Part shown: positions 21,555-34,950 of the stretch, in pieces
Numbering within the stretch: the first letter of the stretch is position 1
How the letters are laid out: every line of letters starts with the position of its first letter
Position numbers and translations under genes: made by a program
Origin: Paraburkholderia sp. Tr-20389
GTDB lineage: Bacteria; Pseudomonadota; Gammaproteobacteria; Burkholderiales; Burkholderiaceae
NCBI RefSeq assembly: GCF_017104565.1
Contig: NZ_JAAGPD010000029.1
Location: forward strand, 62,001-126,000
Length of the DNA stretch: 64,000 bases
Reading direction: 5' to 3'
Notes under the pieces: generated by a model
Told to the model about the DNA's origin: nothing
Databases searched by the model: none
Seen by the model: the letters and a program-made list of their open reading frames with translations, nothing else

Positions 21555-22259
21555 TTACTTGCTCAGCTTGCGGTACAGCTCGTTGGCGCGCGACAAATGC
21601 GCATGCATGGCTTCGGCGGCCGCGTCGCCGTCACGCTTCGCGATGGCATCGACGATGCGCTGATGTTCCGCCAGAGTCAGTTCTTCCGCGCCGGGCGCGC
21701 GAACCAGCGGGCGATAGTACTCGCCTGCCCAACGGAACAGCGACTCGACGATCGAAGGAAAGATGGGATTGCCGCTGATCTTGGCGATCTCGCGGTGGAA
21801 CGCCATGTCGCGCTCGATGAACTCTTCGAGATTGACCATCGACGCCCGATGCTGCGCGACGCTCAATTGCAGCCGCGCGACGTCTTCTTCCGTGGCGCGT
21901 TCGGCGGCCATGCGCGCCGTGCCCGTTTCGAGGAAGAGGCGCGCGTGCTTCAGATGCTCCAGCATCTCCGGGTCCGTGCGCAGCAGATGCATCGCGCCGC
22001 TCGCGATCTGGCCGATCAGCCGGTCGGCTGTCGGCACGACGACGCGCGCGCGCTCGCCGTGTACGATCTCGACGATGCCCGAGCGTTCGAGCGTCTGCAG
22101 CGCTTCGCGCACGGCAGGCCGCCCGACGCCGTAGATTTCCATCAGTTCCCGCTCGGACGGCAGCTGTGCGCCGGGCGCGATTTCGCCCGAGCGGATGCGC
22201 TCCATCAAACGGTCCACGACTTCCTGGTACAGCTTCCGACGCGGGATGATCTCGCCCAT
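21555..22259 (-). CDS. GntR/FadR (NanR-like) regulator of the D-apiose locus
   Basis: 234 residues: a GntR winged helix (KLYQEVVDRLMERIRSGEI...PSERELMEIYGVGRPAVREALQTLERSGIVEI) and a FadR-C all-helical ligand domain with the metal/ligand residues of the FCD fold (MAFHREIAKISGNP, LAEHQRIVDAI). The start MGEIIPRRK matches NanR-type members; longer readings are not supported. It closes the apiose gene cluster and has a palindromic site 21-39 bases upstream of its start that recurs at two other promoters of the locus. A repressor released by a pathway intermediate is the likely role. Confidence 0.9.
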   Translation of the reverse strand: MGEIIPRRKLYQEVVDRLMERIRSGEIAPGAQLPSERELMEIYGVGRPAVREALQTLERSGIVEIVHGERARVVVPTADRLIGQIASGAMHLLRTDPEMLEHLKHARLFLETGTARMAAERATEEDVARLQLSVAQHRASMVNLEEFIERDMAFHREIAKISGNPIFPSIVESLFRWAGEYYRPLVRAPGAEELTLAEHQRIVDAIAKRDGDAAAEAMHAHLSRANELYRKLSK

Positions 22260-22280
22260 TACATGTATGCGACAAGCTTC

Positions 22281-22299
22281 TGGTGTAATGACAATACCA
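22281..22299. promoter_or_regulatory. Candidate GntR operator in front of its own gene
   Basis: TGGTGTAATGACAATACCA is a near-palindrome (TGGTnT-N7-AnACCA) between the OiaK stop and the GntR start. The same pattern recurs at 27380 and, with a weaker right half, at 34932. NanR-type regulators bind GGTATA-like repeats, which fits. Confidence 0.6.
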
Positions 22300-22372
22300 T
22301 ACACCGATCGATCCTTGCGTGGAACCGTTTGCCTGATCAGACACGCTCCACGCCGCCCCGACATCGTTGCCT

Positions 22373-23755
22373 TCACATCGCTTCACGCCCCGCCTTGACC
22401 GCGCCGAAAAACGCAGCGCCGCCGATCTGCCCGCCCTTCAGCACGATCTCCAGCCCGTCGCGCCGCGCCGACTTCGACCACGCACGACACAGCGGTGCGC
22501 CAGGCGCGAGACCCGCCGCGACATTGAGCGCGTCGATACCGAGCGTGCTCGCCACTTCGCCCGAACTGTCGCCGCCTGCCACGACCACGCGCTTCAGCTC
22601 GACCCGATCGAGCAGATCACGCATCACTTGCGCGAGCGCCCCGCCGACATTGCGCGCCGCCTGCTGTCGAGTCAAGCCGGCATCACGCGCGATCTCGTCG
22701 AAGCCGACCACGGCCGGATCGTCTGGACCTTCCGCGCTGTGCACGACGACGCTGACACCACGGCGCAGCGCATCGGCGGCAACGCTGACCGCGCGCTCGA
22801 TCTCGGCGCCGCCTGCTTGCGAGTCGAGCGCGCGTCGCAAATCGAGCCGCTCGACATGAACGCCGTGCGCACGCGCCCACGCAATCTGCGATGCCGTGAC
22901 GGGCGAGCAACTGCCGCTCACCGCTGCGATCGCATCGACGGGACCGGCGACGGGCAGCGACGGCGTCGCGGGCAACCAGCCGCGCGAGCGCCAGTAGGCG
23001 GCCAGCGCATATTGCAGCCCCGACGACGACGCGCTGAACACACCCTCGCCACGCTGCTCCCACACGAGCCGCCCCGCTTCGACCAGCGTTTCCTCATCGA
23101 GCACGTCGATCAGCGCAACGGGCTTGTCGTCGGCACTGAGCGTAGCGACGCGCGCAGCGCCCTCGCCGCCGCGCAACTGCACCATGTCGATCAGTTCGAT
23201 GCGGCGCGACGTCTGCCTTCCGAGATGCACGCGCAAATCGGCTTCGTCCATTGGCGTGACGGGATGACGCGACATCGTCGGATGACGGTCGAGGCGATAG
23301 CCGATGCCGTTCACCGCGGCGAACAGATTGCCGAACATCTGATAACGCTTCAGACGCGGCGCGCCGATCACCATTGGCGACCAGCGCGCGCGCATCGCGT
23401 TCACGCCGATGTCGATGGCCGCGCCGATCGAACCAACCTCAGGCGATGAGTCGAACGTCGAGCACACCTTGTATTGCAGAATGGGCGCGCCGAACGCCGC
23501 GAGACTCGCGAACGCGGACGGCAGCACATCGCGCATCCACGCCGGATTGCGTCCGCGCGACGAACCCGCGAGCCCGACGCAGCGGACTCCCGGAAAGCGC
23601 GCGAGCAATTCGGGCGTCGGTGCGTCGAGACACAACACCGTCGGCACGCCCGCCGCCGTCATCGCCTCCATCGCATCCGTCGATCCCGTGAAGTCGTCGC
23701 CGTAGTACGCGAGCAGCGGTCCCGCCGGCAGTTCCGTTTGCGCTGAATCCGTCAT
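22373..23755 (-). CDS. oiaK: 3-oxo-isoapionate kinase (four-carbon acid sugar kinase / DUF1537 family)
   Basis: 460 residues. The N-terminal substrate domain has the signature AYYGDDFTGSTDAMEAM; the C-terminal nucleotide-binding domain has VVAGGDSSGEVAST and LKGGQIGG. In the known Paraburkholderia D-apiose pathway this DUF1537 kinase phosphorylates 3-oxo-isoapionate at O4, making the substrate of the RuBisCO-like enzyme. It begins 7 bases after the oiaX stop. I took the ATG that avoids overlap with oiaX; the longer reading has no support. The family call is certain; the substrate rests on the complete pathway context. Confidence 0.88.
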   Translation of the reverse strand: MTDSAQTELPAGPLLAYYGDDFTGSTDAMEAMTAAGVPTVLCLDAPTPELLARFPGVRCVGLAGSSRGRNPAWMRDVLPSAFASLAAFGAPILQYKVCSTFDSSPEVGSIGAAIDIGVNAMRARWSPMVIGAPRLKRYQMFGNLFAAVNGIGYRLDRHPTMSRHPVTPMDEADLRVHLGRQTSRRIELIDMVQLRGGEGAARVATLSADDKPVALIDVLDEETLVEAGRLVWEQRGEGVFSASSSGLQYALAAYWRSRGWLPATPSLPVAGPVDAIAAVSGSCSPVTASQIAWARAHGVHVERLDLRRALDSQAGGAEIERAVSVAADALRRGVSVVVHSAEGPDDPAVVGFDEIARDAGLTRQQAARNVGGALAQVMRDLLDRVELKRVVVAGGDSSGEVASTLGIDALNVAAGLAPGAPLCRAWSKSARRDGLEIVLKGGQIGGAAFFGAVKAGREAM

Positions 23756-33800: not shown

Positions 33801-33904
33801 GGAAGACCTCTCGGTACGTCGAATGAGAAAACTGATGTGTGACGCAGATCGATGATGCAACGCGAGGAGAAGCGTGCGATATCTCCTCGCGATGACGTCG
33901 CGCG

Positions 33905-34843
33905 CTAGCGCAGTGCGAACATGTCGAGCTTGCCGGCGTTCGCTTTCGTGATCAGCGAGCAGTTGATCAACTGTTTTTCCGGTTTGCCCGTCGAGCCGGT
34001 CTTCATGTACTTGTCGGCCTGATCGACGGCTTCCGTCGCGGCCTGCGCGGCCGGCTGCAGGACGGTCGCGCGAATGTCGTTGCGCATGATGGCGTCGCGC
34101 ACGTCGTTGCTGCCGTCGAAGCCGACCACGATCACGTCGCTGCGCTTCGCGGCCTTCAGCGCCGCCGATGCGCCCATCGCCATCGTGTCGTTGCCCGCAA
34201 TCACACCCTTGATGTCCGGGTGGCTCTGCAGAATGGTTTCCATCACGCGATACGCTTCCGTCTGGCTCCAGTTCGCCGACTGCCGCTCGACCATCTTCAT
34301 GCCCGAGAACTGGTCGATCACATCGTGATAGCCCTTCGAGCGGATGCCGGCATTGATGTCCGCTTCACGCCCGACGAGCTCGACATAGTTGCCCTTCTCG
34401 CCCAGCGCCTTGACGAACGCGCGGCCGCCGAGCTGCGCGCCCTGATAGTTGTTCGACACGATCTGCGAGACGGCAATACCCGTCGCGTTGATTTCGCGGT
34501 CGATCAGGAACGACGGAATGCCCGCCGCCTTCGCCTTCTTGACCGCGGCAATCGACGCTTCAGAGCCTGCGTTGTCGAGAATGATCGCCTTCGCGCCGCG
34601 CGCGATGGCCGTATCGACGAGATTCGATTGCTTGTTCGCGTCGTCGTCGTGGACGAGGACGATCGTGTCATAACCGAGCGACTTGGCACGCGCGTTTGCG
34701 GTGTCGGCTTCGGCCTTGAAGAACGGGTTGTCGTGCGAGGGGGTGATGATGGCGATCAGATTCGCCGCCTGCGCGGCGCTGCTTGTGCCAACGACCGCCA
34801 AAGTGGTCAACGCAAGCGCGAGCCACCGCTTCGATGCTTTCAT
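33905..34843 (-). CDS. Periplasmic sugar-binding protein of the ABC importer (probable D-apiose)
   Basis: 312 residues: signal peptide ending SSAAQA, then a type-1 periplasmic binding fold ([53 protein letters not shown]). It resembles RbsB-type pentose-binding proteins. As first gene of the importer-apsD-apnL operon it is the probable D-apiose receptor. GGAG lies eight bases before the ATG. Confidence 0.92.
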
Positions 34844-34931
34844 CGTCTTGTCTCCAGTCTGGTTAAACGCCTTGTGCACTGCCTAAAACCAGTCGACGGT
34901 CGTCGTTATCGCCTACTCATCACATGTGCCG

Positions 34932-34950
34932 TCATGAGGTCATCATACCA
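34932..34950 (-). promoter_or_regulatory. Candidate GntR operator before the importer operon
   Basis: On the minus strand the site reads TGGTATGATGACCTCATGA. Its first 11 bases are identical to the site at 27380, and both are preceded by GC; the right half is degenerate. It lies about 90 bases upstream of the binding-protein start. This is the third copy of the motif in the locus. Confidence 0.5.

Follow-up and report, generated by a model that had tools for sequence, protein, structure and literature searches.

A candidate NanR-type regulator and a shared 11-bp element at three control regions of a D-apiose gene cluster in Paraburkholderia sp. Tr-20389

The gene cluster and its candidate operators

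A 64-kb stretch of DNA from Paraburkholderia sp. Tr-20389 (contig NZ_JAAGPD010000029.1; hereafter the window), whose host genome measures 9 Mb, contains a full D-apiose/D-apionate cluster of 11 genes, all on the minus strand, running from 34843 to 21555, and a short DNA element, the 11-mer TGGTRTNATGA, that precedes each of the three units of the cluster. We consider it about 80% probable that a NanR/FadR-type regulator encoded in the cluster binds these 11-mers, represses the three units, its own among them, and is released by an acid of the pathway. The genes lie in the order substrate-binding protein (SBP), DUF2291 protein, ATPase, permease, Gfo/Idh dehydrogenase and ApnL, followed by a major facilitator superfamily (MFS) transporter, an ApnO-type protein, a RuBisCO-like protein (RLP) and OiaK, and closed by a GntR/FCD regulator. 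The locus corresponds to named Paraburkholderia records. The genes and candidate operators are as follows.

33905..34843, minus strand: sugar ATP-binding cassette (ABC) SBP (PF13407, 185.5 bits)
33141..33801, minus strand: DUF2291 periplasmic lipoprotein (PF10054, 191.9 bits)
31588..33144, minus strand: sugar ABC ATPase, assigned from the translation as read and synteny in relatives
30463..31584, minus strand: sugar ABC permease (PF02653)
29371..30459, minus strand: Gfo/Idh/MocA dehydrogenase, probable D-apiose dehydrogenase (PF01408, PF22725; function from position)
27449..29374, minus strand: ApnL, D-apionolactonase, 641 amino acids (NF049900, 780.4 bits, cut-off 750)
25938..27317, minus strand: MFS transporter, D-galactonate-transporter-like (PF07690; TIGR00893, 269.6 bits, under its cut-off of 395)
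25056..25886, minus strand: ApnO-type D-apionate oxidoisomerase (PF16896 PGDH_C, 243 bits; assigned by domain and position)
23763..25007, minus strand: RLP (NF042437, 456 bits, cut-off 700)
22373..23755, minus strand: OiaK, 3-oxo-isoapionate kinase (NF042436, 839.6 bits, cut-off 700)
21555..22259, minus strand: GntR/FCD regulator (NanR subfamily), 234 amino acids, probable cluster repressor (NF003011, 310.7 bits, cut-off 260; PF00392, PF07729)
22281..22299, plus strand: candidate operator 1, 19-bp palindrome TGGTGTAATGACAATACCA, 22 bp upstream of the regulator start
27380..27398, plus strand: candidate operator 2, 19-bp palindromic site TGGTATGATGAGTAGACCA, 63 bp upstream of the MFS gene
34916..34950, minus strand: candidate operator 3, conserved 35-bp block TGGTATGATGACCTCATGACGGCACATGTGATGAG, whose first 24 bp (34927-34950) are an inverted repeat

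The gene set and order proposed in an earlier sequence-only reading of this DNA agree with the family and domain matches, and OiaK and ApnL both exceed the cut-offs of their curated models. No NCBIfam model reached its cut-off for the ApnO-type protein in the family-model search. The start of the MFS gene was corrected to 27317; its product would probably import an acid of the pathway, a substrate that is a guess. The regulator start was placed at 22259 (234 amino acids) rather than at 22376 (273 amino acids) because the reading frame is open for only 236 amino acids in six orthologues.

The 11-mer occurs exactly three times in the window, at 22281 (plus), 27380 (plus) and 34950 (minus), compared with a mean of 0.09 and a maximum of one in 100 shuffled sequences. 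The regulator, the MFS-led unit and the importer each have one copy ahead of them, at 22, 63 and 84 bp from the respective gene starts, as the sequence-only reading had claimed for a shared element at three control regions, the regulator's own included. The first two sites also match the 19-bp pattern TGGTRTNATGANNNNACCA, which was found twice in the window and never in shuffled sequences. The motif had been written in that reading as TGGTRT-N7-ANACCA, and exact matches do occur at 22281 and 27380; with two mismatches allowed, the consensus yielded 11 matches in the window against a shuffle mean of 8.7, which is the level of chance, and the 11-mer is the conserved unit. At the importer, where only a left half had been noticed, the site proved to be more than a half: positions 34927-34950 read on the minus strand as TGGTATGATGA-CC-TCATGACGGCA, an inverted repeat of different geometry with 11-bp arms, the second of which fits eight of the ten defined positions of the 11-mer (partly by direct reading). 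This candidate operator overlaps a possible -10 sequence (TATGAT).

Searches for additional members of the regulon gave no clear candidates. With up to two mismatches, the search of the Tr-20389 genome returned 18 rows compared with 12 for a reversed control, and none is claimed; four of the 18 correspond to the three known sites, and inspection by position of 15 of the loci, one of which was the known importer site, revealed no clear regulon candidate. A further exact match to TGGTRT-N7-ANACCA on contig C9 was rejected, as it lies inside an open reading frame away from apiose genes. Several loci of the genus also share a GCGAAAACCCTGG box, which in the window lies at 34981-34993, about 30 bp upstream from the importer operator, and a similar AAACCCAGTG box ahead of the MFS site (27417-27426).

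Conservation of the element

The genus set comprised 145 genomes, including that of Tr-20389. The regulator was present in 31 of these (E ≤ 1e-75) and the exact 19-mer in 29, all of which were among the 31; the 19-mer was absent from the 114 genomes without the regulator, and the reversed pattern was absent throughout. The two regulator genomes lacking the exact 19-mer were G132, which has a site with two mismatches, and G032, in which the gene is truncated. Conservation at orthologous loci, one of the tests that the sequence-only reading had set for itself, was borne out: a site precedes the regulator (TGGT-N11-ACCA within 260 bp upstream) in 25 of the 31 loci, the MFS gene in 24 of the 26 loci that have one, and the importer in 19 of the 20 loci with an SBP gene in the stretch. 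A looser 24-bp pattern was found in 20 of the 145 genomes and its reversed control in none.

The patterns TGGT-N11-ACCA and TGGTATNATGA had served to select the genus sites, so conservation was judged from the remaining core columns alone. These unselected columns carried 1.61 bits at the regulator site (25 rows), 1.89 at the MFS site (20 rows, four of the 24 sites being too near the gene start and left out) and 1.72 at the importer site (19 rows); left and right flanks carried 0.71 and 0.54, 0.88 and 1.31, and 0.73 and 0.46 bits, respectively, in rows that are related and in some cases nearly identical. Compensatory paired changes within the 19-bp sites were considered and dropped, as on recount the variants differ in symmetry and do not pair.

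One genome, G053, retains the regulator in apparent isolation (L113, G053:C2, 15900-16120). The other ten genes of the cluster were not found in the stretch, an apparent loss, and the genome gave no RLP match. Immediately upstream of the regulator's promoter is the importer control region, and both operators were kept together with the regulator. The relic importer operator, TGGTGTGATGA-CA-TCATAACACCA, is a 24-bp inverted repeat in which both arms fit the 11-mer in full, a single case that favours a real 24-bp geometry. In another genome (L130, G032:C26, reverse strand, about 16540-17241), the copy of the regulator lacks its first 33 residues and directly follows an apparent 16S rRNA 3' end, recognised by eye, as might arise by recombination or as an assembly artefact.

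Beyond the genus, the 11-mer was sought at named loci, namely the best 80 of at least 555 relatives of the window RLP, four of which are named Paraburkholderia. Forty-seven exact copies were found in 35 of the 80 loci, compared with a mean of 1.1 loci and a maximum of 13 for permuted motifs. Forty copies in 31 loci lie in the 200 bp ahead of a recognised cluster gene (near-sites); among 300 column-permuted motifs, such near-sites averaged 0.15, and one permutation reached the maximum of 20. The near-sites precede RLP, ApnO, ApnL, Gfo/Idh, MFS or regulator genes in clusters of differing gene order. Their hosts include Bosea, Mesorhizobium, Inquilinus, Jiella, Salipiger, Azoarcus, Cupriavidus, Caballeronia, Halomonas, Litchfieldella and others, which are alpha-, beta- and gammaproteobacteria; one near-site lies in an acidobacterial metagenome-assembled genome (L232). 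Of the 45 loci with a related GntR protein (at least 40% identity), 26 have a near-site, vs. 5 of the 35 loci without such a protein (p = 8e-5).

Among eight plasmid loci, four contained the exact 11-mer (L248, L251, L252, and L254). In Rhizobium etli, R. johnstonii and S. meliloti, it lies between oiaX and a regulator annotated as NanR; A. tumefaciens L247 and R. gallicum L253, oiaX loci with no NanR-type regulator annotated beside oiaX, had no exact copy. The regulators beside oiaX at L248, L252 and L254 are annotated "transcriptional regulator NanR" yet adjoin apionate genes, so the label is probably a misnaming. Eight loci of other RLP types (L044-L051), which served as a negative control, lacked the exact 11-mer, and two of the five other-RLP loci scanned first had matches with one mismatch. 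Over 59 non-redundant sites, conservation extended to positions that had not been selected: AAC before the 11-mer (36, 38, and 49 of 59) and A-Y-C-A at +15 to +18 (42, 52, 31, and 48 of 59). Columns +20 to +23 carried at most 0.14 bits over the same sites, and the 24-bp geometry was rejected as a general rule.

The regulator and its proposed mode of action

The regulator belongs to the FCD (FadR) subfamily of the GntR superfamily, with helix-turn-helix and FCD domains both present, and scores above the cut-off of the NanR subfamily model. Its closest solved relative is NanR (6on4, E = 2e-43). PMC8012715 describes Arg59, Arg69 and Arg73 of NanR as putative base contacts, Arg128 as forming a salt bridge to sialic acid, and Asp172, His176, His222 and His244 as zinc ligands; all eight are aligned with identical residues in the regulator, and six of nine putative DNA-contact residues are identical (both from a hand-counted alignment). 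The same paper attributes cooperative assembly of NanR to an N-terminal extension of 32 residues and has one dimer bound per GGTATA repeat, of whose two DNA-binding domains only one contacts the consensus while its partner sits on non-consensus DNA. The regulator lacks this extension, residue 5 aligning with NanR residue 27, and any cooperativity would therefore come from elsewhere.

The system may work as follows. As a GntR/FCD winged-helix protein, the regulator would bind TGGTRTNATGA at its own promoter and at those of the MFS-apnO-RLP-oiaK and importer-dehydrogenase-lactonase units, and would repress all three, its own gene included. Each operator would be composed of two mutually inverted 11-mers, which overlap in the 19-bp form and adjoin each other in the 24-bp form. 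Once D-apiose has been imported and oxidised, one of the pathway acids, with D-apionate and 3-oxo-isoapionate as the likeliest, would enter the FCD domain's Zn/Arg pocket and release the repressor; as such a pocket suits a hydroxy acid, either of the two would be favoured over apiose itself as inducer. The genes, the sites with their positions and conservation, and the conserved contact, zinc and carboxylate-binding residues are observed; that the protein binds, that it represses and does not activate, which acid induces and that each operator takes two dimers we infer. By analogy with NanR, each 11-mer may be the site of one dimer and the operator a pair of 11-mers, in which case both spacings could work. 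More tentatively, the regulator might represent an apionate-sensing branch of the NanR subfamily that reads a modular 11-mer, one dimer to each, in 19- and 24-bp geometries, the spacing evolving freely while the unit stays fixed. It is a similarly speculative suggestion that such a branch would be previously undescribed, would extend across alpha-, beta- and gammaproteobacteria and would in part be labelled NanR.

Several observations weigh against repression of the three units through the 11-mer. No exact 11-mer lies near a recognised cluster gene in 49 of the 80 named loci, and the Xanthobacter sp. YC-JY1 locus and both Methylobacterium loci have no exact copy. Three of the nine putative DNA contacts of NanR (Ser33, Ser71, and Asn89) differ in the regulator. 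The co-occurrence of 19-mer and regulator among the genus genomes (Fisher p = 2e-28) is partly trivial, as the two share a cluster. No simple sigma-70 promoter match was found at any of the three regions, and TGGTATRAT resembles an extended -10, so that conservation at the importer and alphaproteobacterial RLP sites is perhaps partly that of a promoter. Autoregulation, claimed in the sequence-only reading, is consistent with the operator-like site at most regulator promoters of the genus; the site is absent in 6 of the 31 loci, namely the G032 locus with its truncated gene and a five-locus subclade whose regulators are 75-76% identical and which has only the MFS site in the stretch examined. 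Autoregulation is therefore not universal.

Three other explanations have to be set against this evidence. The 11-mer could be mainly a strong extended -10 promoter (TGG-TATAAT/TATGAT) instead of an operator: it holds TATGAT or TATAAT after TG, the importer has TTGTAG or TTGTCG about 16 bp upstream in several loci of the genus (read by eye), and a promoter would account for part of the sense-oriented sites. Within the genus, however, the MFS and regulator 11-mers are antisense to the gene they precede, and 17 of the 40 near-sites run only antisense and 10 only sense, the other 13 being flanked by starts on both strands. The partner arm and the AAC before the 11-mer are conserved though unselected, and so are inner core columns beyond the -10, and we regard a mainly promoter function as improbable. 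It is unlikely, too, that the regulator is an activator or acts in both directions rather than as a plain repressor. That no strong sigma-70 promoter was found at the three regions would suit an activator, and FadR, a relative, both represses and activates (PMC4259882); against this, the sites, at 22, 63 and 84 bp from the gene starts, are near or over the likely core promoter, and NanR, the closest solved relative, is a repressor (PMC8012715).

Finally, the sites could belong to a different regulator, with the GntR gene a mere passenger. Near-sites in 5 of the 35 named loci with no GntR match in the stretch would fit such a case, which is made very improbable by the autoregulatory position of the site and by G053, where sites persist beside a lone regulator after the rest of the cluster has gone. 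The half-site core GGTAT also fits the GGTATA of NanR (PMC8012715), and TGGTATGATGAGTTAA occurs in a primer (fadD-FadR2) for a FadR site of E. coli fadD (PMC4259882). Binding of the 11-mers by the NanR/FadR-type regulator, with repression of the three units, remains the reading we prefer.

The RuBisCO-like protein, related systems and significance

The window RLP had been named OiaX in the sequence-only reading, an assignment that probably does not hold. It falls under the cut-off of the OiaX model, as do ten further RLPs from several clades of the genus and order. Proteins labelled OiaX were 43-44% identical to it among the best 60 of 298 plasmid records (43% for R. etli OiaX, an NCBI label), compared with 75% for the RLP of Xanthobacter sp. 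YC-JY1. In a phylogenetic tree, the window and YC-JY1 RLPs fell in one 17-row clade (support 100/94), and two labelled OiaX rows were placed far from it. K154 and K180-D181-D182-E183 are invariant across nine RLPs and mark the protein as a RuBisCO-superfamily member; the former corresponds to the active-site lysine and the latter to the metal motif of that superfamily.

A review (PMC6302742) assigns decarboxylation and transcarboxylation/hydrolysis of 3-oxo-isoapionate-4-phosphate to the RLPs of Agrobacterium K84 and Xanthobacter, an order that we read as respective, with decarboxylation in K84 and transcarboxylation/hydrolysis in Xanthobacter. Because the window RLP groups with a Xanthobacter protein (that of strain YC-JY1, the characterised one being from X. 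autotrophicus BAA-1158), it is probably a 3-oxo-isoapionate-4-phosphate transcarboxylase/hydrolase and not an OiaX decarboxylase. The presence of TIM and RpiB beside the RLP gene was dismissed as a sign of the OiaX branch, since these are annotated in R. etli only and not in the oiaX stretches of R. johnstonii and S. meliloti. RLPs of the transcarboxylase/hydrolase type are termed OiaT. The RLPs at L044-L051 (G014, G096, G074, G025, G037, G045, G011, and G020) are 46-54% identical to the window RLP and adjoin DUF1537 kinases that are 35-48% identical to OiaK; the RLP at L026, which is also the L047 gene, matches PDB 3nwr at 828 bits, and the window RLP at 398 only. An RLP next to oiaK should not always be taken for OiaX.

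The window system resembles several that are known. The D-apiose/D-apionate pathways of Carter et al. (2018), known here through PMC6302742, likewise include a Gfo/Idh dehydrogenase, ApnL, ApnO, OiaK and an RLP (names in part from NCBIfam); the window differs in its RLP below the OiaX cut-off. The oiaX clusters of R. etli p42f and R. johnstonii pRL12 share the SBP-DUF2291-ATPase-permease-Gfo/Idh module, a PGDH_C protein, a kinase, a NanR-type regulator and exact 11-mers, but have an RLP labelled OiaX by NCBI and a regulator divergent from oiaX; R. etli alone also has the annotated TIM and RpiB. E. coli NanR, with its (GGTATA)3 operator, has in common with the window regulator the GGTAT core, the base-contacting arginines, the zinc ligands and the carboxylate-binding arginine. 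It differs in its N-terminal extension and in its direct GGTATA repeats near sialic acid genes, a type of operator not found at the window locus, where the 11-mer pairs are inverted and the neighbours are apiose genes. FadR sites in E. coli are a similar 11-bp unit, TGGT-N3-ACCA-like, that stands single rather than paired, and FadR is a fatty-acid regulator with a different effector domain.

The sequence-only reading had also held the operator to be undescribed. In agreement with it, no description of this operator was found in the open literature searched, a scope that does not include the founding pathway paper (Carter et al., 2018), so that absence from print is not established. Adjoining the cluster, window positions 35070-41346 probably hold a type VI secretion effector-immunity set: they encode a VgrG-type protein, a 494-residue protein without a Pfam match and a pair of paralogous immunity proteins (Imm72/Imm71).

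The candidate operator and its regulator provide a directly testable control system for the utilisation of apiose, a sugar found in the rhamnogalacturonan II of plant cell walls. A subset of the NanR annotations in soil and plant bacteria are probable apionate regulators, and the 11-mer offers a short DNA tag for locating apiose regulons and for building apionate sensors. The paired, inverted 11-mers would also supply a second operator architecture with which to compare how NanR-type dimers share DNA.

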